Source: a virus. Taken from it: DNA of 54,324 bases. Below the pieces are notes generated by a model that saw nothing but the letters and a program-made list of their open reading frames with translations, was not told the origin of the DNA and ran no database searches. Each line of letters opens with the position of its first letter. The first letter of the stretch is position 1. Of the stretch, positions 23,972-53,051 are shown in pieces. The position numbers and the translations under genes were made by a program. The stretch is taken from positions 1-54,324 of the IMG/VR virus record IMGVR_UViG_3300037486_000437; one strand, 5' to 3'.

Positions 23972-24002
23972 CGGATACTCCATCTGCTCGCCCGGTGGCG
24001 AG

Positions 24003-24233
24003 TCAAGTGGACGCCACGGTGACAACTTCAACGTTGACCTTGTCATCAACGAAACTGCGCGTCACCATTCGCAAATTCCCATCGATCAGGGCAAACTCAA
24101 ATGAGACAATTTCACCTTCACCAAACGCTATTTGAATATTGCTCCGATCAAAGTATACTACGGTCGGCACTTCATATCCCTTGCCTTCCAGCGTGATTTT
24201 GACTCTCTCTAGCGGGATTATTGCGCTGATCAT
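24003..24233 (-). CDS. Small AT-richer hypothetical protein next to an attC-like hairpin
   Basis: A 76-residue beta-rich protein (VKITLEGKGYEVPTVVYFD, then GEIVSFEFALIDGNLRMVTR). Base composition is distinctly less G+C-rich than its neighbours, suggesting separate origin. It starts about 25 bases after a GTTAGGC box that ends a hairpin element at 24259-24296, the spacing seen for integron cassette genes, but no matching downstream site is visible. Function unknown. Confidence 0.5.
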   Translation of the reverse strand: MISAIIPLERVKITLEGKGYEVPTVVYFDRSNIQIAFGEGEIVSFEFALIDGNLRMVTRSFVDDKVNVEVVTVAST

Positions 24234-24258: not shown

Positions 24259-24296
24259 GGCCTAACTTGTATTTATGCGGAATCCTTCCGCCTAAC
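24259..24296. repeat. Dispersed hairpin element with GTTRRRY-like boxes (copy 1)
   Basis: CTAACTTGTATTTATGCGG followed by AATCCTTCCGC; GCGGAA and TTCCGC form a hairpin. The same CTAACTTGTATTTATGCGG block occurs at 46158. On the minus strand the element ends in GTTAGGC, matching the integron core consensus GTTRRRY, and a second GTTAGGC lies at the other side (24296-24290). It may be a shortened or decayed recombination site. About 110 more bases up to the next gene show nothing clear. Confidence 0.45.
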
Positions 24297-24410
24297 ACGC
24301 CCCACGGGCGGCGATTGCTGTGATAGGCCGTCCCTGCCTACACCGGGATCGCTTGAGAACGGTTGCGGTGCAGGCAGAGCGGCTTTTAGCAAAGCGGGTT
24401 CTGCAGCCCG

Positions 24411-25445
24411 CTAGTTGCCACTAACAAAAAACGGTAGATACAGCCCCCATACGGCTGGCGGTAACTCGCGATACTCGATACGGTAGTCACGGCATCCCGT
24501 GATGCTTCCCGACGCGTACACCTCGGCCATCACGTCGCCATCCTCCGAGATGTCGTCCCAGACGACGGGGAGCTTGCCGTTACCGATGCTGTCGAATTTC
24601 ACCCACTCCCCGGCGCTGTCCTGCCGGTAGAGCAGGATTACAGGATACACCCCGCTCGCGCCAATGGCCGTCAGCGTCCGTGTGTAGCGCGGCGTATGCA
24701 CGAGGTGGAAGACATCGACGATATCGGTGGTCATAATCTGCGAATCGTCCAGCGGTACACCGGGATACAGCGGCGTAGCCGTGCTGGCCGTGTCGTTAGG
24801 TTCTCGCGCTGAGCCAGCGCATAGGTCACGGCTCGCCAGCGGGCGCGCACCCGTGACGGTGCCGCCAACTCCGCCGTCAGCCTGCCACGCGATTGACGCG
24901 CCCTCGTGGACGCCACGATAGACGATGCCGAACATGCGCACCGACTCCGAGCCGGTCGGAGCCAGTTTGAGCGCCGCGCCCGCGGTGGCCCAGATCATCG
25001 GCCCGTTGACCTCCGTAACGTTGGCGGTATCAGTCCACAGCGTGATCTCCGGCGCGGCGCTGCTGTGAAGCGCGTATAGAAAACCGGAGTAGAGCGTCCC
25101 GTCAACGTCGAACACGTTCGGGCCGGAGAGATGCTCTAGCGTAGGCGTCACTACTGGCGTCGGCCAGGCGACGGGGCGGAGGCTGATGCTGCTACTCGCC
25201 CTCAACGAGCGGAGCCCGACCGCGTTCGGCGGTTGGGTGGGCGTCGGCGTCGCAGCCGGCGTCGGCTTCGGCGTCGGCGTGCAGTCCGGTATCGTTATGC
25301 CGGTCTGTACGTTTGCTTGGGTGGACGCTTCCGACACGGACGCTCCGATACGATCATGTGACGGCGGGGCTGACCAGAGCTCCGCCGTTATCGGTGCTGG
25401 TGTCGCCGCCAGCAGCGCGAGAACGAGAACGATTGCCGTAATCAT
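24411..25445 (-). CDS. Secreted Chloroflexota-style protein (prophage cargo candidate)
   Basis: A 344-residue protein with a signal peptide (MITAIVLVLALLAATPAPITA), a Thr/Pro linker (TPTPKPTPAATPTPTQPP near 55-72), a beta domain, and a second domain with EPNDTASTATPLYPGVPLDD and VDVFHLVHTPRYTRTLTAIG, the style of bacterial pre-peptidase C-terminal domains. It ends WGLYLPFFVSGN, like the YLP-hydrophobic tail of many exported Chloroflexota proteins. It starts with an ATGA overlap from the initiator gene. It would act outside the cell or on its surface, perhaps altering the lysogen. Odd cargo for an early operon. Confidence 0.7.
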   Translation of the reverse strand: MITAIVLVLALLAATPAPITAELWSAPPSHDRIGASVSEASTQANVQTGITIPDCTPTPKPTPAATPTPTQPPNAVGLRSLRASSSISLRPVAWPTPVVTPTLEHLSGPNVFDVDGTLYSGFLYALHSSAAPEITLWTDTANVTEVNGPMIWATAGAALKLAPTGSESVRMFGIVYRGVHEGASIAWQADGGVGGTVTGARPLASRDLCAGSAREPNDTASTATPLYPGVPLDDSQIMTTDIVDVFHLVHTPRYTRTLTAIGASGVYPVILLYRQDSAGEWVKFDSIGNGKLPVVWDDISEDGDVMAEVYASGSITGCRDYRIEYRELPPAVWGLYLPFFVSGN

Positions 25446-34276: not shown

Positions 34277-37200
34277 CTAACTCTGTTTGACTAGCCCCAG
34301 GTTTTGCAGCGCGCTGATGACGTTGTCCACTGTCGCACCGGCCCCCGTCGCCAGCACTGCGCGCGCCACCGCCGTCACGCCGTAGAAGCCGATGTAGGAC
34401 GTGCTCGCCCCGATTATTACATCGCCGCCGTTGGGATTGAGCTTCAGCGGTCGATAGACTGAGAGGTCGTTTGGCTTCTGCGCCTGAATCCATGCGGGAT
34501 ACGATGTCCCGCCGTCATTGATGATGCCGAAATTGAGTTCGCTGCCAGCCCACGTGCGATCCGTGTAGCCGACGCGCAACATACCATTACGCGTTGTACC
34601 GGACGTAGCTGGCGCATTCAGCGCGCCGCCTGCGTCGAGCGGCAATACTGGCGTGCCATTGACACCGACGCGATTGTTCGTCGTGTCCACGGTGACAATC
34701 GCCGTGCCGCTGGCGTTGCCGAGTTGCAGCGCCGTGGTGCTGTCGGATGCGGGACGGATGGCGCCGCCAGCCATAGTGTAGTTTCCCGATGTATCGAAAG
34801 TATGTTTAGTAACAAGGTTGAATTCAAGGGTTGCCGCGTCCGGCGTAGCTCCAGATGTTGACAGCGATAGTCTTGCCTGGACTCCAGCGTTACCATTTGC
34901 TTGCAACCTGACATAAGCCTTTTTGGCTGATGTTATAGGAACTGATGAGTCTAAAGATACAATTGCATCTGCTGTAGCGTGATATACGCTTACCGAAATC
35001 TCTCTACCCGATGTACTCGTCCATGCCGAAGTTCCCGAAAAGATATTGGTGCCATCCGTAAATCTATAACCAGAAGTGGGCACAAAGCTCGAATCGGCGG
35101 TGAATGTAATCCCATCCGCATCCAGTTTAACATCCCCGCCGCCCGCGTACAGCCGGCCATCCGTGCCGAAGTACACCTGCGCCACGTGCGTGTTGTAGGT
35201 TGCCAGACGCCCGATATCGCCGTCACGCCAGATTTTGAGGCCCGTTTCAGGCCACGTCGCATCACCGTCATGGCCGGTCTGATACGTGCCCTGGTAGATG
35301 CCGCCCGCCGCGCCGATGCTCAGGAAGCCGCTCATGTTCAGCGCGCCGGTGTCCACCACAATCGCCGCCAGGCTCGCCACATAGATTTTGTCGGCGGTGA
35401 CGCTGCCCGGCTCTAGCTCGGACGGAAACGGCTTCCAGGCGCTTGGCGTGTCGGACTGCTCGACCTGCACATGATCGATGTAGAGCGAGCCTTGCACTGC
35501 CGCGCCGCTAGTGATGCTGATAAATAGTCCGCCGATGGCTTCAACGCTGGCACCCCAGGCGACGCGTGCAACGTAACGCTGCCATGCCGCAGTAAGATTC
35601 GGCCGCGCGATCCAGGTTTCCGATGCTGGCGCTGTATTCCAGTAGAGCGCCATGCTCGTTCCAATCGCCGTGCCCACCGCCGCGGCCCACCACGATACGA
35701 CATAGGTCGTATTAGCCAGCCAGTTGCCCTGCACACCGCCGCTAATGACGCTGGTTGTGTATACGCCTTTTACCGTTGTGTTATTGACGGCCCAGGTCAC
35801 GCTCTGATAGTTGCGACCATCGACGCCACCCGCAACGTGCACATCGTAAGCCGTGAACGGTTCCAACGCGACTGAGTTGTTATAGCCCGCCCAACCCGTC
35901 GCCCACCCGGTCGTGCCGCTCTCTACCTGCATGGTGCTATTCAGCAGCAGATTGGCCCCGCCCGCCGTGATGATCAACTTCTCCGCGGCCACCGTGCCTG
36001 GCGACAAATATGTGCCGTCCAAGACGCTGCCCACGCCGGGCGTCAGGGCCCCCGTGATCGTGACCCCCGTCGCCGTCAGCGCACCCGTAGCCGAGACCCG
36101 GAACGGCGCGGCCGCCTTAACGCTGCCGCCGATGTTCAAGGCCCCATCCGTGGCGTCGTTGAGCCACAGTTTGTTGGTGGAGCCGACCACGATGCTACCC
36201 TGCGTTACCGTGATGCCCAAGGCGTCAATGGTCACGCCGCTGGCCTTGATTTTGCCGTCCGAATCCAGATATGCCTGTAGCGCCCCGCTGTTCGTGCCCA
36301 ACCATTTGCCCGTGCGCGTCGCCGGATCGTACAGCCCCACCCAGCCCGTCGCATTGCCGTAATCGCTGGGCGAGGTGAAGTGCGTCGCCGGGTCGATCAA
36401 CTCGATGCGATTGCGCACCCGCACGATGCCCACCTCGCCCTGCACGATCGGCGCGCTCGTGGCGCCGGCCCCGTCACCGCCGACCGCCGCCGATAGGCTA
36501 TCATTCTGCCCGCCGAAATTCACCGTCGCCCGGATGCCGAACTCGCCGGGCGTCAGGCTCATCGTCACCTTGCGCACCGGGTAGTCGCCCACCAGCCCCA
36601 GCGCCGCAAAGCTGACCGAAACTTGCTGCCCCGCCCGGATGCCGAACCGCTCCACCGTAGCTGTGCCCGAGACGCTGCCATAGGCGTACTGCTCCAGCAG
36701 CGCATCCGCCAGGTTCTGCGCATCCGCCAGCGCCGTAATGCTTGAATCAGAGACCTCTTTGTCGAACCACAGATTGCCGTAGGCGGTATAGCTGGCATTG
36801 CTCTGCGCCGTGGCGACCACCGCCGTGTCGCTGCGATAGACCACCACAATTGCCGCTGACCCGGCCGGTGGGCTGGCATCCGGGAAACGGAGCGTGCCGG
36901 CGCTGTAGTTGACCAGCACATCATAGCCGCCGCCGAAGCTGTCATACCAGTCCACGCCGTGGCTCTGCAGCGTGCCGGCGACGGTGATGCGCACGATGTC
37001 CCGGAGCGGCTGCGTGGTCAGCGTGAAGAGCACCGTGCTGCCGTCGCCCGTGAACGTGTCCGTGATCTCCGCCGAGGGCGCCGTGCCGCCGCGCACCGTG
37101 ATGCGATTGTAGATCAGGCTGGCGTCCCGGCTCAGCGCCGGCAACCCCAGCACCGGAAAGTCACTCGACCAGTCGGCGGTCGTCACCAGCGCCAACCCAA

Positions 37201-40200
37201 ACGGCGCTACGTCGGCGCTGGCCGCCCGGAAATACAATTTCTTATCCGCCCGGATCTGCCATTCCCAGTCCGTGCCGGCGTCCTCCGCAGCCAGCGCCTT
37301 CAGGCGCTCCAGCACGCTGGTGAGCTGCTCGCCGTTGGCCGTGAAGGTCGTCAGCGTCGGCCCGGCCGAGACATACGTCGCGGTGTTGAACTCCGTCAGG
37401 CCCGCGGCCGTGAAAGCGTCGGCGATGATGTCCTCGGCCGTGGTGTTGGTCCAGGTGCCCCGGATCAGCGGCGCCCGCCCCAGCCGTGTGCTGTAGCTCT
37501 CGCAGGTCAGCGCCCAGGCGCGATGGTTGCCATTCGCCACCAGCGTCGGCTGCGCCTTGACGACATAGCCGCCGAACTGCGCTACGCCGTCGATCTTGAA
37601 GATCACCACCTGCCACTCCGCCGCCGTGAAGGCGTTGCTCACGTCCTCGATCGTGAAGCGCAGCGTATCCACCTGGCTGCCGGCCACATCCACCCATTGC
37701 AGGCTGCCCCGCTGCAGCAGCGTGATGCGCTCCGTACCGGCGACGGTCAGCGAGAACGTCAACACCTGACTGCTGACAGGCACCGACGGCGAGACCGACG
37801 CCGACGGGCTGCGGCTGCTGGACGGGCTGCGCGAGCTTGACGGTGAGCGCGACGGTGAGCGCGACGGGCTGGTCGATGGTGAAATTGAGCTTGACGGTGA
37901 GCGCGACGGTGAAATCGAGCTTGACGGTGAGCGCGACGGTGAAATCGAGCTTGACGGTGAGCGCGACGGTGAAATCGACGGGCTGGTCGATGGTGAAATT
38001 GAGCTTGACGGCGAGCGCGACGGTGAAGTCGAGCTTGACGGGCTGGTCGAGCTCGACGGTGAGCGCGACGGCGAAATTGAGCTCGACGGTGAAACTGACG
38101 GTGACTCGCTCGCCGACGGGCTGGTCGATGGTGAAATTGAGCTTGACGGTGACTCGCTCGCCGACGGGCTGGTCGATGGTGAGCTTGAGCTTGACGGGCT
38201 AGTCGATGGTGAAACTGAGCTTGACGGTGACTCGCTCGCCGACGGGCTGGTCGACGGTGAAACTGAGCTTGACGGTGACTCGCTCGCCGACGGGCTGGTC
38301 GATGGTGAAATTGAGCTTGACGGGCTGGTCGATGGTGAAACTGAGCTTGACGGTGACTCGCTCGCCGACGGGCTGGTCGATGGTGAAACTGAGCTTGACG
38401 GTGACTCGCTCGCCGACGGGCTGGTCGATGGTGAAACTGAGCTTGACGGTGACTCGCTCGCCGACGGGCTGGTCGATGGTGAAATTGAGCTTGACGGTGA
38501 CTCGCTCGCCGACGGGCTGGTCGATGGTGAAATTGAGCTTGACGGGCTGGTCGATGGTGAAATTGAGCTTGACGGCAATTGCGACGGTGAAACTGAGCTT
38601 GACGGTGACTCGCTCGCCGACGGGCTGGTCGATGGTGAGCTTGAGCTTGACGGTGACTCGCTCGCCGACGGGCTGGTCGATGGTGAAATTGAGCTTGACG
38701 GTGACTCGCTCGCCGACGGGCTGGTCGACGGTGAAACTGAGCTTGAAGGTGAGCGCGACGGTGAAATCGACGGGCTGGTCGACGGTGAAACTGAGCTTGA
38801 AGGTGAGCGGCTCGGTGAAATCGACGGGCTGGTCGACGGTGAAACTGAGCTTGAAGGTGAGCGGCTCGGTGAAATTGACGGGCTGGTCGATGGTGAAATT
38901 GAGCTTGACGGTGACTCGCTCGGTGAAATTGACGGGCTGGTCGATGGTGAAACTGAGCTTGACGGTGACTCGCTCGGTGAAATTGACGGGCTGGTCGATG
39001 GTGAAACTGAGCTTGACGGTGACTCGCTCGGTGAAATTGACGGGCTGGTCGATGGTGAAATTGAGCTTGAAGGTGAGCGCGACGGTGAAATCGACGGGCT
39101 GGTCGACGGTGAAACTGAGCTTGACGGTGACTCGCTCGGTGAAATTGACGGGCTGGTCGATGGTGAAACTGAGCTTGACGGCGACCGGCTCGGTGAAATT
39201 GACGGGCTGGTCGATGGTGAAACTGAGCTTGACGGCGACCGGCTCGGTGAAATTGACGGGCTGGCCGATGGACTGGCCGATGGCGACACACTACTCGATG
39301 GTTCCACCGCCGCGTGCGTGATCGCCAGTAGCGGCCGATAGCCCGCCGTGTCATTGTCTTGCGTGCAGATGTAGATATATTCGGCGCCCGTCGGGGTGGT
39401 GCCAGCTTTGTCGCGAGACGAGCGCAGTCCATAGTATGTGTTGCCGGTTTTACTCGGCCAGGCGGTCGCGAGATTGCCAGAGGTGTATTGCGTATCGGTG
39501 CTGATGCCGCTCGTGCTGCGCCAAATGTTGTCGTCGGCGGCGGCGGATAGGCAGTTGTCGTAAGCCGCCTCCTGGTTGCCTGAGCTAAGCGGGTTCTGCG
39601 CCGACCAATCCTGTTTGACAATCTGGACGTTGAAATCGGTATCGGACACGTCAGTGGCGCAGGTCAGTTTGAGATTGACCTGCGAGATGACATCGGTGTC
39701 TGGAATGGCGCTGGTGCTGAAAACCAGCAGTCCGCGATAGACCCCATAGTATCCGATATAGGTTTGTCCTACGGCTGCGGAGGTGTAGTAGTTATCATAG
39801 GAAAGGCAGTCGCTACGCGCGGTAGAATAGATAAGATCGTGGTTGTATATATACGCATCGGCGCTGCCCGCCGCGTAGTCGGGATCAATCGTCACCGGGT
39901 AGACAGCATCGGCCAGCCAACTGACCGGCACGCCAGTGTAGAGATACTGGATGTTGCCGACCGTGCGCGCATAGCGTTTGCACTCAGCGCGGCTGCCTGG
40001 CCCCACACGGCTATCGTGCGCGCTTGGCGGCGGGAAACGCATCCCGGAGGTCTCAAATTCGTCCAGCCAGCCGTCCGGGAAACTGCTGCCCGTGATCTGC
40101 GTTTCGAGCACCAGCCAGTCAGACAGCTTGACGCCGGGGATGCTGGGCTTCTCGGCAATGACGATTTCCTCTCGCAAACCCTTCTCAGTCAGCGTCAACA

Positions 40201-40597
40201 CGCGCTTCCAAATGCCGTTCTCTGCAATGATCTGGTTGCCGGAAACATGGCCGAGCGGGATCGTGCGATAGCCGACAAAGGTCTTGGTAGCTGGCGTGAG
40301 GATGCCGACGCGCGTCGAGCGGTGGCTATGGTTCTGGCCGACGATGCGCACCGCCCCGTCGAGGCCGATGCGTGTCGCCAGCCCCGGCGCGCCGTACTCG
40401 GTGCCGATGACCTGGAGCGCAGTATCGAGCGGCTGCCACACGCCGTTCGTGTCCTGCCAGTGCGCCGGACTGCCGACGAAATGCGTGATGCGCTCGGTCG
40501 CGCTCAACGCCGCGGTGATGCCGTAGCGATGGCGCGTGAGCACCTTCCCGGCCAGGTCGGGATTGCGTTCGAGAAAGTCAGCCGCCCAATTTGCCAT
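34277..40597 (-). CDS. Giant tail hub/fibre protein with mucin-like Ser/Pro repeat
   Basis: A 2,106-residue protein. Residues 1-430 include YPVTIDPDYAAGSADAY and a DNRLRE/CBM96-like beta domain. Residues about 431-932 are a Ser/Pro repeat built of SPSxSPS units. Residues 945-1350 look like a baseplate hub (FTIEDVSNAFTAAEWQVVIF; LSRDASLIYNRITVRGG; TVERFGIRAGQQVSVSF). Then come a fibre part with GKIKASGVTIDALGITVTQG, a jelly-roll-like domain near 1560-1700 (QGSLYIDHVQVEQSDTPSAW) and a C-terminal LQNLGLVKQS end. It would link the tail tip to the cell surface. It is preceded by a coupled 43-residue gene and a glycosylation cluster. Confidence 0.75.
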   Translation of the reverse strand: MANWAADFLERNPDLAGKVLTRHRYGITAALSATERITHFVGSPAHWQDTNGVWQPLDTALQVIGTEYGAPGLATRIGLDGAVRIVGQNHSHRSTRVGILTPATKTFVGYRTIPLGHVSGNQIIAENGIWKRVLTLTEKGLREEIVIAEKPSIPGVKLSDWLVLETQITGSSFPDGWLDEFETSGMRFPPPSAHDSRVGPGSRAECKRYARTVGNIQYLYTGVPVSWLADAVYPVTIDPDYAAGSADAYIYNHDLIYSTARSDCLSYDNYYTSAAVGQTYIGYYGVYRGLLVFSTSAIPDTDVISQVNLKLTCATDVSDTDFNVQIVKQDWSAQNPLSSGNQEAAYDNCLSAAADDNIWRSTSGISTDTQYTSGNLATAWPSKTGNTYYGLRSSRDKAGTTPTGAEYIYICTQDNDTAGYRPLLAITHAAVEPSSSVSPSASPSASPSISPSRSPSSSVSPSTSPSISPSRSPSSSVSPSTSPSISPSESPSSSVSPSTSPSISPSRSPSSSISPSTSPSISPSESPSSSVSPSTSPSISPSESPSSSVSPSTSPSISPSESPSSSISPSTSPSISPSRSPSSSVSPSTSPSISPSRSPSSSVSPSTSPSISPSRSPSSSVSPSTSPSASESPSSSISPSTSPSASESPSSSSSPSTSPSASESPSSSVSPSQLPSSSISPSTSPSSSISPSTSPSASESPSSSISPSTSPSASESPSSSVSPSTSPSASESPSSSVSPSTSPSASESPSSSVSPSTSPSSSISPSTSPSASESPSSSVSPSTSPSASESPSSSVSPSTSPSSSSSPSTSPSASESPSSSISPSTSPSASESPSVSPSSSISPSRSPSSSTSPSSSTSPSRSPSSSISPSTSPSISPSRSPSSSISPSRSPSSSISPSRSPSSSISPSTSPSRSPSRSPSSSRSPSSSRSPSASVSPSVPVSSQVLTFSLTVAGTERITLLQRGSLQWVDVAGSQVDTLRFTIEDVSNAFTAAEWQVVIFKIDGVAQFGGYVVKAQPTLVANGNHRAWALTCESYSTRLGRAPLIRGTWTNTTAEDIIADAFTAAGLTEFNTATYVSAGPTLTTFTANGEQLTSVLERLKALAAEDAGTDWEWQIRADKKLYFRAASADVAPFGLALVTTADWSSDFPVLGLPALSRDASLIYNRITVRGGTAPSAEITDTFTGDGSTVLFTLTTQPLRDIVRITVAGTLQSHGVDWYDSFGGGYDVLVNYSAGTLRFPDASPPAGSAAIVVVYRSDTAVVATAQSNASYTAYGNLWFDKEVSDSSITALADAQNLADALLEQYAYGSVSGTATVERFGIRAGQQVSVSFAALGLVGDYPVRKVTMSLTPGEFGIRATVNFGGQNDSLSAAVGGDGAGATSAPIVQGEVGIVRVRNRIELIDPATHFTSPSDYGNATGWVGLYDPATRTGKWLGTNSGALQAYLDSDGKIKASGVTIDALGITVTQGSIVVGSTNKLWLNDATDGALNIGGSVKAAAPFRVSATGALTATGVTITGALTPGVGSVLDGTYLSPGTVAAEKLIITAGGANLLLNSTMQVESGTTGWATGWAGYNNSVALEPFTAYDVHVAGGVDGRNYQSVTWAVNNTTVKGVYTTSVISGGVQGNWLANTTYVVSWWAAAVGTAIGTSMALYWNTAPASETWIARPNLTAAWQRYVARVAWGASVEAIGGLFISITSGAAVQGSLYIDHVQVEQSDTPSAWKPFPSELEPGSVTADKIYVASLAAIVVDTGALNMSGFLSIGAAGGIYQGTYQTGHDGDATWPETGLKIWRDGDIGRLATYNTHVAQVYFGTDGRLYAGGGDVKLDADGITFTADSSFVPTSGYRFTDGTNIFSGTSAWTSTSGREISVSVYHATADAIVSLDSSVPITSAKKAYVRLQANGNAGVQARLSLSTSGATPDAATLEFNLVTKHTFDTSGNYTMAGGAIRPASDSTTALQLGNASGTAIVTVDTTNNRVGVNGTPVLPLDAGGALNAPATSGTTRNGMLRVGYTDRTWAGSELNFGIINDGGTSYPAWIQAQKPNDLSVYRPLKLNPNGGDVIIGASTSYIGFYGVTAVARAVLATGAGATVDNVISALQNLGLVKQS
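37800..39305 (-). repeat. Coding Ser/Pro repeat region of the tail protein
   Basis: About 1.5 kb of imperfect tandem repeats with units of 12 to 30 bases that encode SPSTSPSISPSRSPSS-type sequence. The minus-strand frame is the true one: it joins two folded regions without a stop. Repeated long blocks show recent duplication, so the length probably varies between relatives. Confidence 0.9.
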
Positions 40598-43165: not shown

Positions 43166-43646
43166 CGGCCAGCTCCCGGAAATTGCTCACCACGCTCGAG
43201 CTCGGATACAGCCCCGTGTAATCGTAGCGGTATTTGAACAGCGGCCAGATCCGGCTATACCCGTATTGCGCATCCCACGCCGGCTCGGTGTCGTGGATCA
43301 CGATCAGATCGGCCAGATAACGCAGCCGGGCGATCTCCACCGGCCGGCGCCGATTCGGGCTATGATCGACGAACGCCAGGCCCCAGTGATACTCAGTCAG
43401 ATCCACCGCGTCCCACGCTTCGCACTTGCGGATGTGATGATACTCGCTCTGCCAGCGTTGCGCCCGCTCGCACCAGCCACCCCGGCTCTCATACGAATAC
43501 ACGTGCCGCTGGCTGACCGTCGCCAGCCAGTGCAGCAGCAGCGTCGAAAAGTAGCCCGTGCCCAGCTCCAGCACCGGCCCCTGGCTTTTGTCGAAACAGC
43601 GCGTCAGCAGCGGGATATGGCTCGCCACCATCACGCCATCGGTCAC
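43155..43646 (-). CDS. Class I SAM-dependent methyltransferase (sugar or surface modifying)
   Basis: A 163-residue protein starting MTDGVMVASHIPLLTRC from a GTG that overlaps the previous stop (GTGA). Motif I is VLELGTGYFSTLLLHWL (near 25), and HWGLAFVDHSPNRRRPVEI near 90 resembles the post-II acidic loop, followed by ADLIVIHDTEP. Among glycosyltransferases it probably methylates a sugar. It is shorter than most members but has the complete core. Confidence 0.7.
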   Translation of the reverse strand: MTDGVMVASHIPLLTRCFDKSQGPVLELGTGYFSTLLLHWLATVSQRHVYSYESRGGWCERAQRWQSEYHHIRKCEAWDAVDLTEYHWGLAFVDHSPNRRRPVEIARLRYLADLIVIHDTEPAWDAQYGYSRIWPLFKYRYDYTGLYPSSSVVSNFRELADVR

Positions 43647-44347
43647 ATGCTCAGCGGGGTCTGCCACAATGCCTCCATCTGGGCCGCCGTGCCCCAATAC
43701 GGAATCTCGGTCGCCTGAAACGCCCCGAGCTGCTTGCGGTTGCCGGTATACTGGTAGCCGATGGCCGCCTCGTGAAACACCACCACATGCGGCTCCGGCG
43801 CCTCGAACGCGACCAGCCGCCGCGGTGTCACGCCCAGGCGCTGCTCGTGCCGCCCCACCTCGCTCCAGTGCCCCAGGTTGATCTGCGCAGCGTCCGGGTA
43901 TTTGGCGAAACGCTCCTCCAGCGCCGCCTGCAGCAGCGCCGTCGGCGCAATGCCGCCCGTGGTTGGCCACTTGACCGCCGGATGGTTGAAGCACGCCGGC
44001 CACCACGTGAACCAGGCCCACTTGTGCATGTCGTAGCCGATGGCGTCGGCCGGCGGCCGCCAGCAGGTGAAGTGGCTCGGCGGATACAGGATGTCATCCT
44101 CCGCCAGCGCCACGTATGGCGTGCGCACCGCCCGCACGCCGATCAACTGCTGCCGATAGATGTTGATGTACTGCTGCCCGATCTCGCCGACGCAGATGTT
44201 CTCGCCGAAGCCCGGCAGCGGCTTCTGTGACACGCTCACCAGCGGCAGATCGCCAATGGCCCCCAAGAGCTTCTGGCGCACCAGCGCCCCGAACGGCTCT
44301 CGGATCACGTTGGCCGTGTAGTAAAGCACCGTGAGATCAGGCGTCAT
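43643..44347 (-). CDS. Glycosyltransferase-like protein, paralogue of the C-terminal domain at 40.7 kb
   Basis: A 234-residue protein (TVLYYTANVIREPFGALVRQ; YVALAEDDILYPPSHF near 95). The LYYT...N start and EDD/EHD-x-LY-P-HF motif are shared with the C-terminal half of the bifunctional enzyme, so the two are related by duplication or fusion. The acidic pair in AEDD may hold the donor metal. It starts 15 bases after the attC-like site at 44362 and was probably adjacent to the gene at 46217 before cassette insertion. Confidence 0.65.
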   Translation of the reverse strand: MTPDLTVLYYTANVIREPFGALVRQKLLGAIGDLPLVSVSQKPLPGFGENICVGEIGQQYINIYRQQLIGVRAVRTPYVALAEDDILYPPSHFTCWRPPADAIGYDMHKWAWFTWWPACFNHPAVKWPTTGGIAPTALLQAALEERFAKYPDAAQINLGHWSEVGRHEQRLGVTPRRLVAFEAPEPHVVVFHEAAIGYQYTGNRKQLGAFQATEIPYWGTAAQMEALWQTPLSM

Positions 44348-44361: not shown

Positions 44362-44481
44362 ATCTAACGTCTGAAATAAGCTGCCCGTCACACTTCCAGC
44401 AATACGGGCTGCGGCCCATCCGGGGAATCAACTTCGCTACGGGCTGCCCCTGTTCGGGTCAGCTTCATTTCTTGGTTATCC
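44362..44481 (-). repeat. attC-like integron recombination site 1
   Basis: A 120-base element. In gene orientation it runs GGATAAC (R''), GAAATGAAGCTGACCCG, a variable loop, CGGGCAGCTTATTTC, GTTAGAT (R'). The two arms pair except for two unpaired bases on one side, the signature of attC extrahelical bases, and R' fits GTTRRRY. R'' GGATAAC is the exact complement of the GTTATCC that starts this cassette at site 2. Confidence 0.75.
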
Positions 44482-45212
44482 GTCAGAGGAGGTTGGAGCC
44501 GAGCCTTCCGGCACCGTTCCTCAGCAATCTCGAAGTAATCCCGCCTGAGTTCGATCCCCGTCCCGCTGCGTCCCGTCTTGATGCAGGCGACCAGCGTCGT
44601 GCCGCTGCCCATTGTGTTGTCAAGCACGGCGTCGCCTTCGTTCGTGTACGTGCGAAGCAGGTATTCCAGCAGGGCGACCGGCTTCTGTGTTGGATGTTCG
44701 GGAATCATGACCGTCGAAAACGGAACTATTGAAGTCGGGTAGTAGTCGGCGTTTTCGGTGGTTTGACGATCCGCAAACTTTCCGTAAACTTGGGCGGGGC
44801 CAGTCCTGGCCCCGCCCCGGCTGTGCAGCGTGCCCCGTTTCATCACCGGGTTGTAGGTGTGTCCATTGGGTGCGAACACGCAAATATCCTCATGCTTCTT
44901 CAATGGCTTACGCTTGCAATCCAGATGGCCCGTGGCCCGTGACTTCTCCCAAACCCAAACATACTTGAACCACGCCAGGTTACTGCATACCAGTAGGCTG
45001 GTGAACGGCTGCGAGCCGAACAGCACGATAGCGCCCCTGGGCTTGATCAGCCGCTTGTACTCCGCCCATAGCGGCTCGAATGGGATGACCACATCCCAGG
45101 AGCACGCCGTCGTGCCGTAGGGCAAGTCAGCACAGATCATGTCAAAGCTCGCGCTCGGCAAGGTTGGCATGACTTGCAGACAATTCCCATGAATCAGTGT
45201 CTCGTTACTCAC
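44388..45212 (-). CDS. DNA methyltransferase (beta class, DPPY-type) in an integron-like cassette
   Basis: A 274-residue adenine- or N4-cytosine-type DNA methyltransferase. Motif IV is ADLPYGTTACSWD (near 33-45), and motif I is DNTMGSGTTLVACIKTGR near 205-220, so the order is that of the beta class. The last 27 or so residues (EMKLTRTGAARSEVDSPDG) are read from the attC-like site. The GTG at 45212 lies 18 bases inside the cassette boundary, with AGAGG ahead. It probably protects phage DNA from host restriction. Target site not predictable. Confidence 0.85.
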   Translation of the reverse strand: MSNETLIHGNCLQVMPTLPSASFDMICADLPYGTTACSWDVVIPFEPLWAEYKRLIKPRGAIVLFGSQPFTSLLVCSNLAWFKYVWVWEKSRATGHLDCKRKPLKKHEDICVFAPNGHTYNPVMKRGTLHSRGGARTGPAQVYGKFADRQTTENADYYPTSIVPFSTVMIPEHPTQKPVALLEYLLRTYTNEGDAVLDNTMGSGTTLVACIKTGRSGTGIELRRDYFEIAEERCRKARLQPPLTDNQEMKLTRTGAARSEVDSPDGPQPVLLEV

Positions 45213-45224
45213 GTTGCCTCTGCC

Positions 45225-45344
45225 GGATAACGGTTGAAATAAGCTGCCCGTCACCCAACCGGCAAGACGAACAGCGGCCCATCCGGGGAGTCAACTTCGC
45301 TGCGAGAGAACCCACTTCGGGTCAGCTTCATTTCGTTGTTAGAT
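45225..45344 (-). repeat. attC-like integron recombination site 2
   Basis: Also exactly 120 bases: ATCTAAC (R''), GAAATGAAGCTGACCCG, loop, CGGGCAGCTTATTTC, GTTATCC (R'). Loop and arms are about 75-80% identical to site 1, as expected for sites from one array. R'' CGATCTAA is the complement of TTAGATCG at 46148-46141, the start of the upstream cassette. Confidence 0.75.
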
Positions 45345-46132
45345 CGGAGCGGCAATTGAAGCGCAGTTCCAGCAATACGACCCCTGGCATTCTCGAAGAA
45401 CCTGCGATTGATTTCGCACCCGATGAAATCCCTGCCAGTGCGAACGGCTGCAACTCCGGTAGACCCCGACCCCATGAAACAATCCAGCACAACGGGAATC
45501 CTGGCGCCATCTTTCAGGCAAGTGAACATCTGGATAAGACGCTGCGGTATCTCGACCGGGAACGCTGCCGGATGCCCGTTCTGCCGGGCGGGAACGTTCC
45601 ACCAAACGTCTTTGGTCTCATCCAGGAAGGGCACGTCCTTCGTGCCCCGCCTGCCCGTGCCGTTGTCGTAGTAGTATCTGCTTTTGCTGTGAAGTAGGAT
45701 CATTTCACAGGTTGGGCGAACATAGATATTGTTATCAGACCCCATGGCGTAGGACGTTGCTATCGGCCCGGTATCCTCTTTGCCCTTTACCCAGACAATC
45801 GCTTCTCGTGGCAAGAATCCAAGTCGCTCACACATAAGCTCGACCCGAACGGCGATCTTTTCAACCCGTCTCCCGATCTGTTCGATGGAGTCACGGCGTA
45901 ACCGAACCTCCTTCGGAACATTGATGGCAATGACCCCGCCGTCTCGCAGAAGGCGATAGCTCAGCGTCAAGAATCGCTCCATCTCGGCGTAGTAGGTCGG
46001 CCAGTCGGTGTCATCGGAAAGCTCTCCGTAGTCCATGCCAACGTTGTAGCGCGGCGATGTTACGATCAGGTCGACGCTGGCTTCTGGCAGGCGTGCCATG
46101 ACATCGAAAGCATCCTCGTTGTACAGTGTCAC
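45251..46132 (-). CDS. DNA methyltransferase (beta class) in an integron-like cassette
   Basis: A 293-residue protein starting MTLYNEDAFDVMARLPEASV. Motif IV is IVTSPRYNVGMDYG (SPRYN in place of SPPYN), and motif I is LDCFMGSGSTGVAAVRTGRD near 235. A middle region with AFPVEIPQRLIQMF is typical of N4-cytosine/N6-adenine enzymes. The C-terminus (EMKLTRSGFSRSEVDSPDG) is encoded by the attC-like site and nearly repeats that of the next enzyme. A GTG at 46141 is possible but overlaps the cassette boundary. Unlike its neighbours it has moderate G+C, consistent with transfer. Confidence 0.85.
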   Translation of the reverse strand: MTLYNEDAFDVMARLPEASVDLIVTSPRYNVGMDYGELSDDTDWPTYYAEMERFLTLSYRLLRDGGVIAINVPKEVRLRRDSIEQIGRRVEKIAVRVELMCERLGFLPREAIVWVKGKEDTGPIATSYAMGSDNNIYVRPTCEMILLHSKSRYYYDNGTGRRGTKDVPFLDETKDVWWNVPARQNGHPAAFPVEIPQRLIQMFTCLKDGARIPVVLDCFMGSGSTGVAAVRTGRDFIGCEINRRFFENARGRIAGTALQLPLRSNNEMKLTRSGFSRSEVDSPDGPLFVLPVG

Positions 46133-46154
46133 GTTACCCACGATCTAAGCTCCG

Positions 46155-46192
46155 GTCTAACTTGTATTTATGCGGAATGGATTCCGCATAAA
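46155..46192. repeat. Dispersed hairpin element with GTTRRRY-like box (copy 2)
   Basis: TTTATGCGGAAT and ATTCCGCATAAA (46167-46192) form a perfect 12-bp hairpin, preceded on the plus strand by GTCTAACTTGTA. On the minus strand the element ends with GTTAGAC. The CTAACTTGTATTTATGCGG block is shared with 24263. It lies just outside the methyltransferase cassettes. Confidence 0.6.
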
Positions 46193-46216
46193 CGCCCGTA
46201 GAGCGTCAAAAGCGGA

Positions 46217-47077
46217 TCAGCCATACAGCCTCCGCTCCCAGTCGTCAGGCCAGCCCGGTATCGGCCAGAAGCGCTCGATGAACTTCTCGAAGAACACCCG
46301 CCGCTCGTGCACCCACAGATTGTAGGCGTAGGCGTTGCAGGCGTGCACCGACGCATTGCTCATGTAGTAGCCCCGCCCGTACTTGGGCCCCTTGTGCAGG
46401 TGGGCATACCAGGTCAACTTGTTGGTCAGCACGCGCCCGCCGTGATACCAGGTGCTCAGCCCGATCTCCTCCGCCTCCTGGCCCCACCCGCTATACCCCT
46501 CGATCTGCATGAAGCCGCAACGCGCAAACCAGCTTTTCGCCATGAACCAGCAGCTTCCCTGGAAGTGCATCGTCTCGTCAATTGGGATCTCGGCCCGTTC
46601 GAGCGTGCGGGCGTCCCAGCGGAAGCCGTGCAGCCCCAGCGGATTGAACTTCAACGGAAACATGGTGTGCTCGTAGTCGATCGGCGGCCGGTCGTCGCTC
46701 TGCGTCTGCAGGCACCAGTTCTCGGCGTCCAGGCGATGCCGGCGGGGGATCATCACGCTGTCCGGCTCGTAGTTGTCCGCCAGCACCACGTCGAAGCCCT
46801 CCGCCACCAGGCAGTGCGCATCCAGCGCCATGATGTACGGCCCATCGGCCAGTTCGACCGCCCAATTGATGGCGTGGCGCTTCTGGGTGGTGCTCTGCGC
46901 CGGCAGGTGCAGATAGGTCAGCCGGGGATCGTCGATGACCTCCGCCGCCGGCAGCTCGTAGCCGTCGAGCATGGCGTACACGGCGATGTCGCCGCGCGCC
47001 TTGGCCAGCACATCGCGCAGTGTCGCCGTCAAAAACTGTTCGTTGCGACTGGGTACGATCACCGTCACCTGGCTCAT
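46217..47077 (-). CDS. Polypeptide GalNAc-transferase-like glycosyltransferase
   Basis: A 286-residue enzyme: VTVIVPSRNEQFLTATLRDV, the D-x-H metal motif in MALDAHCLVAEGFD (near 90-103), FQGSCWFMAKSWFARCGF near 180 and EEIGLSTWYHGGRVLTN near 215. These correspond to the DxH and E...W.GG motifs of GT27 enzymes that attach GalNAc to Ser or Thr. No lectin domain is present. ATG at 47077 follows the tape measure stop by one base, with GGAG upstream. Paralogue of the N-terminal half of the enzyme at 40.7 kb. Confidence 0.75.
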   Translation of the reverse strand: MSQVTVIVPSRNEQFLTATLRDVLAKARGDIAVYAMLDGYELPAAEVIDDPRLTYLHLPAQSTTQKRHAINWAVELADGPYIMALDAHCLVAEGFDVVLADNYEPDSVMIPRRHRLDAENWCLQTQSDDRPPIDYEHTMFPLKFNPLGLHGFRWDARTLERAEIPIDETMHFQGSCWFMAKSWFARCGFMQIEGYSGWGQEAEEIGLSTWYHGGRVLTNKLTWYAHLHKGPKYGRGYYMSNASVHACNAYAYNLWVHERRVFFEKFIERFWPIPGWPDDWERRLYG

Positions 47078-47078
47078 C

Positions 47079-50000
47079 TCACGCTCCAATTCTTATTTCG
47101 TAGGCGAGGGCAGATTTTAGCAATTCAAACTGCGCCGGGTCCAACGGCACGCCGCCGCCGGCTTGCCCCGTGAACTCCACCACCACCCGCCGCTCGCTCG
47201 TCACCGTGTAGCTGCCGCCCAGCAGCCCCGCCAGCCCCGGCTCCACCGCCAGCGCCAACTGGCGCGCTGCCGCCTGCACCTCGGCGGTCGCCCCCAACAG
47301 GCCCAGCGCCATGCCGTGCCCGATGGCGCTGCCCAGTCCCTCGCCCAGGCTCTCGGCATCCCCGCCGCCGCCCAGACCGCCGGCAATCGACTGCATGACC
47401 GCCGCCACATAATCCAGGAAGTCCTGGAACTGCGCCATGCTGGGCAGCCCGTGCTCGCCCAACGCCGTGAACAGATTCAGCGCCCGCTCCAGCACGCCGA
47501 ACACCTGTTCGAGCGCCGTCCCAAACTCCGCCGCCGTCGGGAGCCAACTTACGAGATCCTCCTGCGCCACGTATTCCCGCCAGGCGTGCAGCGTGCCCGA
47601 GATGCGTTCGATCAGATCCGCCATGCGAATCTTGAAGGTCAGCGCCGAGCTGGCCGCGCCGTCGGTGAGCTGCTTGACCACGCCCAACGCCGTGCCCAGC
47701 ATCCCGAACACCCCGCCGGCCGCCGTCGCAAACGCTGTAGTCGCCGCGGTAGCGGCCTGGACACCGGCGCCCGCCGCATAGGTCTGGATCAGGTTATACG
47801 CGTAGGTCACGGAGTCCAGGAAGCCCTGGATGCGGCTGTTGAGCACCGGGATATAGCTCTGCAGATCCTTGAAGACGCTGACCGCATTCGCCAGCCCGCC
47901 GAACAGCGCGCCCGCCGCCGTGCCGAAGAAGCCGGCCGCCTTGGCCGCCTCCTCGGTCAGATTGCCCGCCGCCCACGTCGCCAACTGCCCCACAAGCGCC
48001 TCAACATCGGCCATGAAGCGGCTCAGCGCGTCCTCGGTCGGTCCGACATACTCTACTACGCCGCGCAAGGCGGTCAGCGCACTGCCCAGCCCGTTGAACA
48101 AATGCGCCGTGGCTGCCCCGAAATCCTGCGCCGCTTTGACCAGCGCCTCGGTCAGGTTGCCCGCCGCCCAGGTCGCCAGCTGGCCCACCAGCCGGCCCAC
48201 ATCGGCCACGAAGGCATCGACCGCCAGCGCCGCCGGCGCCACATAATCTCCGAGCGCCGTCAACGCCTCGACGCCTGACTTGACGATGCCCAGCGCCGGC
48301 CCCGCCGCGGTCGCCAGCTTGGCTGCCGCCGCCAGCAGCTCGTCGGTGATCAGCGCGGAGGCCGTGCCGAGCAAATTCACCAGCCGCTTGATGAACGTCA
48401 CCAACTGCTGCAGGCTCTTGTCCACCGCATTGAGGCTGGCCAGCGGCACATAATCCTTGATTGCCACCAGCGCGTCGACGCCTGACTTGACGATGCCCAG
48501 CGCCGACCCCGCCGCCGCCAGCTTTTGCGCCGCGGTCAGCACGTCCTCGGTGATCATCGCGGAGGCCGTGCCGAGCAAATTCACCAGCCGCTTGATGAAC
48601 GTCACCAACTGTTGCAGGCTCACATCGACTGCGTTGAGGCTGGGCAGTGGCACGTATTCACGTACTGCGCCGATGGCGTCCAGCGCCGTTTTTACCAGCG
48701 CCAACGCCGGCCCGGCTGCATCCACCAGCCGCTTGGCCCCCGCCAGCACATCCAGCGCCAACGTGGCTCCGCATTGGCCCAACCAGTCGACGAGCACCCT
48801 GAGAAAACTCCCGATCTGCATGGTGTTGAGATGCAGGATGCCAAACGCCTGCGGACTCAGCCTAACATAAGCGCCGAGCGTCTCGATCATCCTTAGCGTC
48901 AACCAGATCACGTCCAACGCTGGCCCGGCAGCTTCCACCAACCGTTGCGCTGCCGCCAGCACACCCACCTTGAACGCGGCGCTGGCCTGCCCCAGCCAGT
49001 TGATGAGCAACGATAGGAAGTTGGCAATCTGGTTGGTGTTAAGATACAAAAGCAGAAACGCCTGCGGACTCAGTCGGACATACGCGCCTATGTCACCGAT
49101 CGCATCAATGGCCGTTTTGACCAGCGCCAACGCTGGCCCGACCGCTTCCACCAACCGTTGCGCAGCTTCGAGTAAACTCGCTGCCAATCTGGCCCCGTTC
49201 TGCCCCAGCCAGTTGATGAGCAACGATATGAAGTTGGCAATCTGGTTGGTGTTGAGATACAAAAGCAGAAACGCCTGCGGACTCAGTCGGACATACGCGC
49301 CTATGTCACCGATCGCATCCAGGGCGTCGCCGACGATCGCCAGCACCGGCCCCACGCTCTCCGCAAGCTGGATGGCTGCCGCGCGCAGTTCATCATCCAC
49401 CAACGCGGCCGCTTCGCCCACTACCGTTACCAGTTGAGCAATAAACGCGCCCACCCGCCGCAACTGCGCAATGTCAGGAATTACAAAGCCGCGCAGCAGG
49501 CGCTCGCTCAGGCTCAGCGCGCCGTCGATCGTCTCTAGCAGCGTCGGCACGGCCGCCAAGCCTTCGGCCAGCAGCCCCAGCACCCGCGCTAAATCCAGCG
49601 CATCCGTCAGTGCGGCGGGATCCAGCGTCCGATTCAGCTCCGCCAGCTTGCCGATGACCACTTTGAGCGCCTCGATCACGCGCGCGGCCCCCGCCTGCGT
49701 TTTGGCCAGCGCCGTGTCGTAGGCCGCCAGCGCCGTTACAGCGTCGAGCACCGGGACCAGGCTTTCGAGCATCTCGCCCAGCGGGGCCAGCACCGCCTTC
49801 GCACCCCCGAAGCCGTGCGCCGGATCCGCCGCCCAGCCGGATAGCTCGGCGAAGCCGCGCACGATGGCCTTAACGCTTTCGAGCAGCGGCGCAATTTTCG
49901 CCGCCAGGTTGGCCCGGGGTACAAATTCTGCCAGGGCATCCAGCCCCTCCAGGATGCCCTGCAGATCGGTCAGCATGTCGCTCAGTGGCTCCAGCACCGC

Positions 50001-53000
50001 CCTGGCACTGCCAAAGCCACTATTTGGCGCGGCCGCCCAGCCGGCCAGCGCCGCAAACTCCGCGATGATGGCCTGGATCGTATTGCTGATGCTGCCGAGC
50101 ACCGGCACGGCGCCCGCCGTCAGACCCAGCGCGAAGCCGGCCATCATGTCCTGGCCGATCTGCGCGAACACCTTCGACGGCGAGCTGATGCCCAAGATCT
50201 TGCGCGCCCACACCGGCAAGGCATCAAAAAGCTCTTGCGCCCGCCGCAGCAGATGGTCCTTCATGTCGATGATGCCCTGCGCCAGGCCGGCGATGATGTC
50301 GCGCCCGACGTTATAGAGCAGTTGCGTCGGGTTGGGGATCGCGTCTACGACCTGCTTTGCCACCGCCTTGATCGCCTTCTCGACCTCGCGCAACTCGGCG
50401 GCGATGCCATCGACAAAGCCCTTGATGGTATCCTGGCTGGCCTTGGTCAACTGCTTATCCCACGCCACGAGCTTGTCAACCTCGGCCATGACGCCGGTCC
50501 ACCAGTCGGCAATCGACTTGGCGGTCGCGGCTTTATTCTTATCGCGCTCCACCGCCCAGGCATCCAACATGCCCTGCCACCAGGTCTCCAGCGCCTTTGC
50601 CTGCGCCGCTTTGTTTTTGTCGCGCTCGACGGCCCACGCATCCAGGCCGTTCTGCCACATGGTTTGCAGCCGGGCCGCGGTCGCCTTGCCCCACTCGACG
50701 CTCTTTTTGTCGAACTCGCCCAGCACGGCCCACACCCAAACGCCGATCTGCTTGATCGTGTCGGCCGTCAACTGCTTGCCGCCCGTGTCCCACCAGGTCA
50801 CAAAGTTGTTCCACAGCTTGTCGCCGAGGCTCTTGAACTTGGCATCTGTGGTCACGGGCGAGGCCAACAGGGAGGTCAGCAGACTGCCCAGCCACGCAGC
50901 GATCTTGCCGATGGTATCGAGCGCCAACTGGCTGCCGCCGGTATCCCACCACTTGGCGAAGGTGCCCCACAGATCGCCGATGATCTTGCCCAGCAGGGCG
51001 ACCCAGGAGGGCAACTGCGCCGCCACGGTGCTGACCAGGTTGGCGATCCAACTGGCGATCTTGCCGATGGTATCGAGCACCAACTGCGCGCCGCCGGTAT
51101 CCCACCACGTTGCAAATACCTTCCAAAGCGCCCCAATGACATTGAGCAGCGTCTGCGACAGCGCCGGAAGCTGGGCGATCAGCGCCGTTACCAGCGTACC
51201 GATCCAACCCACGATCTTGCCGAGCACGTCGGTCGTCAACTGCGCGCCGCCCGTCTCCCACCACGCTGAGAACGCCGCCCACAGCCCGCCGATGGCGCTC
51301 TTGAGCTGCGCGATCCAGCCCGGCAGCGCCGTCCAGATCTGCCCGACCAACGCCACCAGCCACGCGCCGATCTGCCCCAACACGGTCGTCGCCAACGCCT
51401 GCCCGCTGGTCGCCCACCACGCCGTGATGCCGGCCCAAATGCGATTGATGGCGCCGCCGATCTGCGTCTGCCACGTCGGCCAGTTCGCCGTCACAAAGGC
51501 GCTCAAGTCGGTGAATGCCTGGCCGAGGTAGGCGATCAGCTTTTGCCCCACGGCCGGCCAGCCGCCGGTATCGAAAGCCGCCTTCAGCTCGTTGAACTTC
51601 TGCTGCACGCCCAACACCAGCGTGCCGATCGGCAGCACTGCCTCCGGTCCGAACGCTGAGCGGATCGCCAGCAGCAGCTCGCCGCGCTGGATGAAGCCGA
51701 TCACCTCCTGCGCCTGCGTGATGAACGTCGTCAGCGCCGTGCCGATGCCCTGCCCGAACGCGTGCACCCGCGCCAGGAATGCCGGGCTGCTGAACAAATC
51801 CACCATGCCGGTCGCCAGCGGCTTCAGCGCCTCGAAGACGCCCGTGAACAGCTCGCGCAGCCCGATCTTCTTGATGTCTTCCAGCGATGAGAGCAGCCCG
51901 GAGATGGTCTGCGTCTGCTTCTTGGCCGCGCCGCCGAAGTCGCTCTCCAGGCTCTCGACGATGGCCTTGATGGCCTTGTCGGCCGGGATCAGCCCCTGCT
52001 CGCGCATCCGCACGATTTCAGCCGTGCTCTTGCCGAACGCCTTGGCCAGGATCGCATCCACGTTGACGCCGACCTCGGTGAGCTGCATCACCTCCTGGCC
52101 GGCCAGCTTGCCGCGCGCCTGGATCTGCCCCAGCGCCAGGCTGATGCGCCTCATCGCCTCGCTGGTCTGCCCGCTGCCGGAAGCGTAGTCGATCATCGCC
52201 TGTGTCAGGCGCTTGGCGCTCACCACGTTGGCGTCCATGGAGTCGGCCACGAAGCCATAGCTCATGGCCATCCTGAAGGCCGCCGCCACGCCCTCCTGGT
52301 CGAAGGGACTGTTGATCGCCAGCAGCTCCGTCCAACGCACCAGCTCCTTGGCCTTGATAGCCGCCTCGCCCTGCACCTCCGCCAGCGTCTTGGTCAGTGT
52401 GGTGTTGGTCTGCGTGATGTCGACGACCTGGCCCTGCTTGCCGGCCAGCTTGGCGTATTCCGCCGTCGTCTCGCCCAGTTGCGCCCGCAGTTTCTCCATC
52501 TGCGCGGCGTGCGTCTTGACCGCCAGGCCCTCCTCGCCCCACTTGAGCGTCAGTTGGCGATGGCGTTCGGTCTCCTCTTGCAGCTTGGCCGCTTGCAGCT
52601 CCCGCTCGCGCCCCAGGTCGGCCAGCTTGGCCGTTTCCTGCTCGGTGAGCTGCACCCGCTGCTGGCCGATCTTGACCGTCTCGGTGACGGCGCTGGCGTT
52701 GCGCAGCTCGCGGGCGATCAGCGACTCCAGCGACATATTGAGCCGCTCGTAACTGCCGACCGCGCCCAGCGCCTCGCGCCCCAGGCTCACCACCGCCCCG
52801 GCGAGCTTCTCGATCCCCTGCACCAGCACGCCGCCGATGGCAAATTCTGCGATGCGCCCCAGGCTGCCCGTGATGTTGCCGATCGCGCCGCTCAGACCGG
52901 CGGTCGCGTTGCCCCAGTTGATGCCATGATACGCACCGGCTACTTTCTGCGCGTTGTCGTGCGCCGCACGCTCAACATCCCGCAGCCCGGTGTAGTAATC

Positions 53001-53051
53001 CATCGCATCCAGCCCGTAGCTGGCCATCAGTTTGGCGACTTCTAGGCTCAT
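47079..53051 (-). CDS. Tape measure protein
   Basis: A 1,990-residue protein. Residues about 255-395 carry the tape-measure domain (MSYGFVADSMDANVVSAKRL; LALGQIQARGKLAGQEVMQL; ADKAIKAIVESLE). Residues about 534-770 contain seven or eight repeats of W.DTGG.QL..D.IGKI..WI. Residues about 1,190-1,560 contain repeats such as AYVRLSPQAFLLLYLNTNQI and LQQLVTFIKRLVNLLGTASA. It is helical with hydrophobic stretches. It sets tail length and sits in the tube lumen. At about 0.15 nm per residue the tail would be near 300 nm. Confidence 0.92.
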   Translation of the reverse strand: MSLEVAKLMASYGLDAMDYYTGLRDVERAAHDNAQKVAGAYHGINWGNATAGLSGAIGNITGSLGRIAEFAIGGVLVQGIEKLAGAVVSLGREALGAVGSYERLNMSLESLIARELRNASAVTETVKIGQQRVQLTEQETAKLADLGRERELQAAKLQEETERHRQLTLKWGEEGLAVKTHAAQMEKLRAQLGETTAEYAKLAGKQGQVVDITQTNTTLTKTLAEVQGEAAIKAKELVRWTELLAINSPFDQEGVAAAFRMAMSYGFVADSMDANVVSAKRLTQAMIDYASGSGQTSEAMRRISLALGQIQARGKLAGQEVMQLTEVGVNVDAILAKAFGKSTAEIVRMREQGLIPADKAIKAIVESLESDFGGAAKKQTQTISGLLSSLEDIKKIGLRELFTGVFEALKPLATGMVDLFSSPAFLARVHAFGQGIGTALTTFITQAQEVIGFIQRGELLLAIRSAFGPEAVLPIGTLVLGVQQKFNELKAAFDTGGWPAVGQKLIAYLGQAFTDLSAFVTANWPTWQTQIGGAINRIWAGITAWWATSGQALATTVLGQIGAWLVALVGQIWTALPGWIAQLKSAIGGLWAAFSAWWETGGAQLTTDVLGKIVGWIGTLVTALIAQLPALSQTLLNVIGALWKVFATWWDTGGAQLVLDTIGKIASWIANLVSTVAAQLPSWVALLGKIIGDLWGTFAKWWDTGGSQLALDTIGKIAAWLGSLLTSLLASPVTTDAKFKSLGDKLWNNFVTWWDTGGKQLTADTIKQIGVWVWAVLGEFDKKSVEWGKATAARLQTMWQNGLDAWAVERDKNKAAQAKALETWWQGMLDAWAVERDKNKAATAKSIADWWTGVMAEVDKLVAWDKQLTKASQDTIKGFVDGIAAELREVEKAIKAVAKQVVDAIPNPTQLLYNVGRDIIAGLAQGIIDMKDHLLRRAQELFDALPVWARKILGISSPSKVFAQIGQDMMAGFALGLTAGAVPVLGSISNTIQAIIAEFAALAGWAAAPNSGFGSARAVLEPLSDMLTDLQGILEGLDALAEFVPRANLAAKIAPLLESVKAIVRGFAELSGWAADPAHGFGGAKAVLAPLGEMLESLVPVLDAVTALAAYDTALAKTQAGAARVIEALKVVIGKLAELNRTLDPAALTDALDLARVLGLLAEGLAAVPTLLETIDGALSLSERLLRGFVIPDIAQLRRVGAFIAQLVTVVGEAAALVDDELRAAAIQLAESVGPVLAIVGDALDAIGDIGAYVRLSPQAFLLLYLNTNQIANFISLLINWLGQNGARLAASLLEAAQRLVEAVGPALALVKTAIDAIGDIGAYVRLSPQAFLLLYLNTNQIANFLSLLINWLGQASAAFKVGVLAAAQRLVEAAGPALDVIWLTLRMIETLGAYVRLSPQAFGILHLNTMQIGSFLRVLVDWLGQCGATLALDVLAGAKRLVDAAGPALALVKTALDAIGAVREYVPLPSLNAVDVSLQQLVTFIKRLVNLLGTASAMITEDVLTAAQKLAAAGSALGIVKSGVDALVAIKDYVPLASLNAVDKSLQQLVTFIKRLVNLLGTASALITDELLAAAAKLATAAGPALGIVKSGVEALTALGDYVAPAALAVDAFVADVGRLVGQLATWAAGNLTEALVKAAQDFGAATAHLFNGLGSALTALRGVVEYVGPTEDALSRFMADVEALVGQLATWAAGNLTEEAAKAAGFFGTAAGALFGGLANAVSVFKDLQSYIPVLNSRIQGFLDSVTYAYNLIQTYAAGAGVQAATAATTAFATAAGGVFGMLGTALGVVKQLTDGAASSALTFKIRMADLIERISGTLHAWREYVAQEDLVSWLPTAAEFGTALEQVFGVLERALNLFTALGEHGLPSMAQFQDFLDYVAAVMQSIAGGLGGGGDAESLGEGLGSAIGHGMALGLLGATAEVQAAARQLALAVEPGLAGLLGGSYTVTSERRVVVEFTGQAGGGVPLDPAQFELLKSALAYEIRIGA

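Follow-up and report, generated by a model that had tools for sequence, protein, structure and literature searches.

How did two DNA methyltransferase genes come to lie between two glycosyltransferase-like genes of a tailed phage? The DNA analysed here (the window, the whole stretch at its full length) is the 54,324-base IMG/VR virus record IMGVR_UViG_3300037486_000437, possibly a fragment, and its genes for portal (13987-15744) and tape measure (47079-53051) proteins identify it as a tailed phage. The methyltransferase block occupies 44368-46148 (1,781 bp). On one side it is bordered by a GT1 glycosyltransferase gene (46217..47089, minus strand) that is kept in 15 viral relatives without cassettes, and on the other by a GT2-like gene (43643..44347, minus strand). 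The GC content within the block is 56-58%, against about 62-70% in its surroundings. Elsewhere the window encodes, at 34277-40597 on the minus strand, a predicted 2106-aa protein that contains a long repeat rich in SPS (SPSASPSISPS...).

The original prediction was that both methyltransferases are integron-type cassettes and that each ends in a 120-bp attC-like site. Because neither folding energy nor arm complementarity discriminated such sites, a covariance model built from unrelated attCs was adopted, trained solely on 15 attCs from plasmid-borne class 1 integron cassettes. At E<=10 this model matched the window at two places alone, attC A (44362..44481, minus strand; R'' GGATAAC, R' GTTAGAT; 31.0 bits, E 1.2e-5) and attC B (45225..45344, minus strand; R'' ATCTAAC, R' GTTATCC; 30.2 bits, E 1.8e-5), so that both 120-bp sites stood well above background in a check that had been set beforehand. 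A score combining a PWM with pairing, derived from the same training set, likewise ranked A and B first and second in the window (61.4 and 54.7), while the best of 60 Markov sequences reached 37.6. As a yardstick, phage TJE1, which according to the part of Qi et al. 2023 (PMC9892861) drawn on here carries attC sites among those assayed with IntI1, gave one match with the class 1 model at 23.7 bits, below both window sites; this comparison is a yardstick for the scores and no proof of activity of the window sites. In A and B the L''/L' pair holds an extrahelical base at the position it has in class 1 attCs; this base is a top-strand G, whereas in the class 1 sites used it is mostly C and in a few G.

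The finer structural claims stood in part. The outer boxes had been said to fit RYYYAAC and GTTRRRY, and two of the four do so in full (ATCTAAC and GTTAGAT); GGATAAC and GTTATCC deviate from YYY/RRR and retain the AAC/GTT core, which is present in all four boxes. The proposed folding of both 120-base sites departs from shuffled sequence for attC A (z -2.5), but attC B folds no better than its shuffles (z -0.7), and a pure arm-pairing scan of the window placed both sites at chance. For this reason, the evidence that these are attC sites is taken to be sequence together with structure, not the hairpin alone. An Rfam scan returned no match, and a DNA similarity search with attC B found none among annotated phages and plasmids. 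As a separate observation, the 5' halves of attC sites in the window (44362-44481 and 45225-45344), L109 (6635-6754) and L110 (873-994) encode, in the same frame, a common C-terminal tail (N-x-E-M/I-K-L-T/P-R ... SEVDS) at the ends of different proteins.

The cassette boundaries provide a second line of evidence. Cassette B (45231..46148, minus strand; 918 bp) and cassette A (44368..45230, minus strand; 863 bp) each carry their attC at the end, and each begins with bases complementary to its own R'', as had been predicted and as would be expected if the cassette DNA was once a circle: TTAGATCG in B is the reverse complement of its R'' over 8 nt, and TTATCCG in A over 7 nt (13 of 14 allowing one mismatch). 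Across 17 cassettes in five phage contigs, the start matched the cassette's own R'' over a mean of 7.9 nt versus 4.95 nt for mismatched pairs (permutation p 5e-6, with some dependence among cassettes of one phage). In three of these cassettes (G001-2, G002-1 and G003-2) the match covers 4 nt alone, perhaps through a missed attC or a rearranged cassette. Both methyltransferase genes are therefore genuine integron-type attC cassettes, as their attC scores and R''-matching starts attest, and with two attCs 863 bp apart and no integron integrase match the window array has the composition of a CALIN.

What do the cassettes encode? MTase B is an N6_N4_Mtase of 296 aa (45251..46141, minus strand; PF01555, E 1.2e-35), and MTase A belongs to the same family (44388..45212, minus strand; PF01555, E 3.4e-25). 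For MTase A, the longest-ORF start at 45254 falls within attC B, so translation more likely begins at the GTG at 45212, which belongs to cassette A. Motif IV of MTase B, a predicted enzyme, aligns as SPRY with SPPY of the closest solved relative, 2zie, so that its activity is uncertain from the sequence; that of MTase A reads DLPY, as it does in the L005 homologue, where the reference motif is (D/N/S)PP(Y/F/W). An anti-restriction role is plausible for these putative methyltransferases. A homologue of MTase A with 67% identity is itself a cassette in phage G003, and further homologues, in the viral contigs L005 (3498-4373) and L019 (1441-1499), are cassettes whose attC is of another type. The MTase A gene also contains a perfect 12-bp inverted repeat, GGGCGGGGCCAG/CTGGCCCCGCCC, at window positions 44792-44817.

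The attC family of the window recurs in three other viral contigs, G001 (33 kb), G002 (73 kb) and G003 (41.8 kb). G003 is probably complete, since it has portal and terminase genes and a 123-bp direct terminal repeat, and G002 encodes a terminase. G001 and G003 have 19 proteins in common and the window and G011, a relative considered below, have 42, while the window and G003 have little in common beyond the methyltransferases; from this pattern of sharing we recognise about three lineages. G003 (L110, L111, L112) was seen to have two cassette loci with four attCs detected by the model and a further two by arm pairing, and one of these loci starts with three methyltransferase-like cassettes. 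A search with the attC model through 50 methyltransferase-bearing viral records returned nothing, a result that is not trusted, as the search missed the attCs of L005 and L019 that were found directly.

Is the methyltransferase block an ancestral part of the GT1 neighbourhood? At the METHYLTRANSFERASE locus, relatives of GT1 are encoded by fifteen viral contigs, and 0 of the 15 carries such a methyltransferase at that position, so that the comparison with relatives gave no refutation of the cassette reading. In the two closest, G011 and G012 (93% aa identity in GT1), the alignment to the window ends at 46215-46222 and restarts at 43584-43643; both thus lack the two cassettes and, along with them, the GT2-like gene, which in the window starts 14 nt past attC A. 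Another contig, L075, has GT2 present and the cassettes absent. None of the GT1-locus relatives displays the precise sequence that preceded the insertion.

A conserved element precedes the arrays. Its consensus, TAnGCGGAA-N-TTCCGCnTAnAT-N(3-4)-G^TT, describes a hairpin and a G^TT upstream of the first cassette, and eight loci, spread over five phage contigs of about three lineages, have it immediately before a cassette array: twice in the window (W1 and W2), twice in G001, and in G002, G003 and G011, with a second G003 site that retains the 3' half. W1 (46161..46192, minus strand) consists of the hairpin TTTATGCGGAAT-CC-ATTCCGCATAAA (z -4.6) and a spacer, with its G^TT at 46161/46160, and W2 (24266..24295, minus strand), TTAGGCGGAAGGATTCCGCATAAATACAAG, has the same motif with its G^TT at 24266/24265. 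When 1.4 Mb of fetched DNA was scanned under relaxed criteria, all hits fell at these loci, except for self-matches of the palindrome on the reverse strand. Seven aligned sites have 22 invariant columns, and the hairpin is paired in 91% of cells versus 27-55% when slid. Two hairpin pairs show compensatory change; the covariation score and percentage paired were seldom reached by shuffles (8/500), and the number of pairs changed on both sides showed no excess over shuffles. In G001, G003 and G011 no base separates the site's G from the first cassette, and G002 has an indel there. A 16-nt match to the W1 region in L079 lies within coding sequence and was taken as chance.

Position and conservation lead us to read this element as an attI-like docking site. 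In attI1 the L box CCCTAAA is followed by ACAAAG^TTRRRY; the hairpin site likewise stands directly upstream of the first cassette and has a G^TT with an L-type box a few bases upstream, and its similarity to attI1 (CCCTAAA-ACAAAG^TT) is short. Unlike attI, it carries a conserved inverted repeat, has no adjoining integrase gene in the window, and is present in two copies each in the window, G001 and G003. The presence of W1 also bears on the insertion target, which the original prediction had placed at GAGC directly followed by TTAGATGG. The 1,781-bp block and the junction sequence are as it described; the target is probably secondary, with the conserved hairpin 12 nt upstream. The left junction of the block reads C^TT where G^TT is canonical, and the join lies 12 nt farther downstream than the G^TT of the hairpin itself, from which it follows that the insertion at W1 was no simple event at the site. 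W1 is separated from cassette B by 12 nt, TTAGACCGGAGC (46149..46160, minus strand), which look like cassette beginnings seen elsewhere (TTAGACCGGACTTCCGG in G003) and are a possible remnant of an earlier cassette that may have been lost at W1.

The second locus of the window bears on cassette turnover. Downstream of W2 a third, decayed cassette starts at 24265 and contains a 76-aa ORF (24003..24233, minus strand) with no match in PADLOC or Pfam. Alignment with an intact G003 attC reveals its own decayed attC (23975..24023, minus strand), in which the L'' side is kept, R'' is shortened to GTC-AC and R' is lost, and which the class 1 attC model missed. G011 aligns with window positions 24271-25244 at 74.7% identity; this alignment extends across the hairpin and breaks off behind it. 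Past the hairpin G011 carries at least two different cassettes (L123 17700-18345, minus strand), with intact attCs of 34.7 and 35.0 bits. Since homology runs through the hairpin and the cassettes differ, related phages differ in the cassettes that immediately follow one and the same site, and both the position of cassettes at this site and their turnover are thereby shown. Farther down in G011 (L123), at about 17500, the attC core recurs in truncated form.

Which enzyme could have moved these cassettes? As had been predicted, no integron integrase is encoded: the window, a contig perhaps incomplete, gave no match to TIGR02249 (integron integrase) or PF00589, and none of 14 related or array-bearing records had a match to the integron integrase model over the cut-off. 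Being metagenomic, the contigs could be incomplete, which leaves this absence unproven. PF00589 tyrosine recombinases were likewise absent from the window, G011, G012 and G002, whereas two are encoded by G001 and one by G003; of the G001 enzymes, the one that was scanned is XerD-like. An integron integrase of the host, acting in trans, would be the simplest reading. We consider it probable that the two cassette loci of the window are each headed by an attI-like site and that a host integrase acting in trans supplies them with cassettes. In this model, the hairpin, spacer and G^TT would form an attI-type docking site on an integrase-less phage genome; a large chromosomal integron of the host with this attC family would supply the integrase during infection; and that integrase, acting in trans, would place excised cassettes into the phage site. 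Helpful cassettes would be retained by the phage, among them methyltransferases that may protect its DNA against host restriction, and the attC sites would afterwards decay in the way seen at W2. The chances appear about even that, across several phage lineages, such an integrase-less integron platform repeatedly draws anti-restriction methyltransferases and other genes from the host integron during infection.

The hairpin need not have been a recombination site at all: it could be the inert left end of a ready-made block that arrived, hairpin and cassettes together, by homologous or illegitimate recombination from a host integron or another phage. The irregular left junction at W1 (C^TT, 12 nt off) would suit such an arrival, as would the fact that the segment absent at W1 in G011 and G012 takes in GT2 as well, and Vibrio phages with captured parts of chromosomal integrons are known. 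We nevertheless regard this reading as unlikely, in view of the W2 locus, where the window and G011 are homologous through the hairpin and diverge right after it, which argues that the W2 site was either pre-existing or precisely exchanged; moreover, about 35 bp are conserved while the upstream flanks vary between lineages. An alternative that keeps the hairpin active assigns it to a Xer-type tyrosine recombinase, either host XerC/XerD or the Xer-like enzymes of G001 and G003, in place of an integron integrase. The hairpin arm TTCCGCATAA presumably recalls the XerC half of dif, and the tyrosine recombinases of those two phages, with one XerD-like among them, are in keeping with this idea; attC architecture and cassette boundaries, on the other hand, are those of integron integrase substrates, and the window, G011 and G002 are without a tyrosine recombinase, which leaves a Xer-type mechanism improbable. 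The remaining proposal would remove integrons altogether by treating the 120-bp repeats as no more than the duplicated 3' ends of two related methyltransferase genes, and the membership of both in the N6_N4 family and their similar C-terminal tails speak for it. It is refuted by the recurrence of the repeat after unrelated genes, such as that for a 92-aa protein in G001, and in a small G002 cassette beside an RNA ligase cassette, together with recognition by the class 1 attC model and the match of cassette starts to R'', and we give it almost no credence.

How much of this is new? The original prediction described cassettes in a phage as an unusual route for acquiring such genes, a route that by now has a precedent: in the part of Qi et al. 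2023 (PMC9892861) drawn on here, virulent phages carry integrase-less attC clusters with N6_N4_Mtase and other methyltransferases as cassettes, five methyltransferases are counted among the phage cassettes, and IntI1 recombined 5 of the 6 phage attCs tested. An integrase-less array of methyltransferase attC cassettes in a phage is therefore already known in kind, and the arrays of that report, as described there, are like the window in having at least two attCs in one orientation, no integrase and methyltransferase cassettes. The same part of the report notes GTTRRRY at some borders and gives no common docking site, whereas here one hairpin-G^TT heads arrays in five contigs and the occupants differ between two relatives. 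TJE1, an example of Qi et al., has a different palindrome at that position. The new part is thus a docking-like site common to several phages with cassette exchange at it, of which the literature searched, with many subscription papers outside its coverage, holds no report. Phage integron cassettes were known until now, yet looked like accidental passengers; if the attI-like reading is true, the docking site would be a standing entry point for phages to the host gene pool, the way in which virulent phages gain counter-restriction genes would become testable, and the hairpin would be a ready marker for phages tied to integron-bearing hosts.

Two further known systems invite comparison. The attG sites, credited to Loot et al. 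2024, resemble the hairpin site in that cassettes are inserted outside an integron in a genome; attG sites have been described as divergent from classical att sites, whereas the hairpin site is conserved in sequence and structure. For sedentary chromosomal integrons, no matching host integron was found, as two strict attC patterns gave no match among GTDB species genomes, a result that says little about hosts. Within a single integron of this type attCs usually resemble one another, and attC A and attC B, with 82% identity across 114 bp, likewise look as though a single pool had supplied them.
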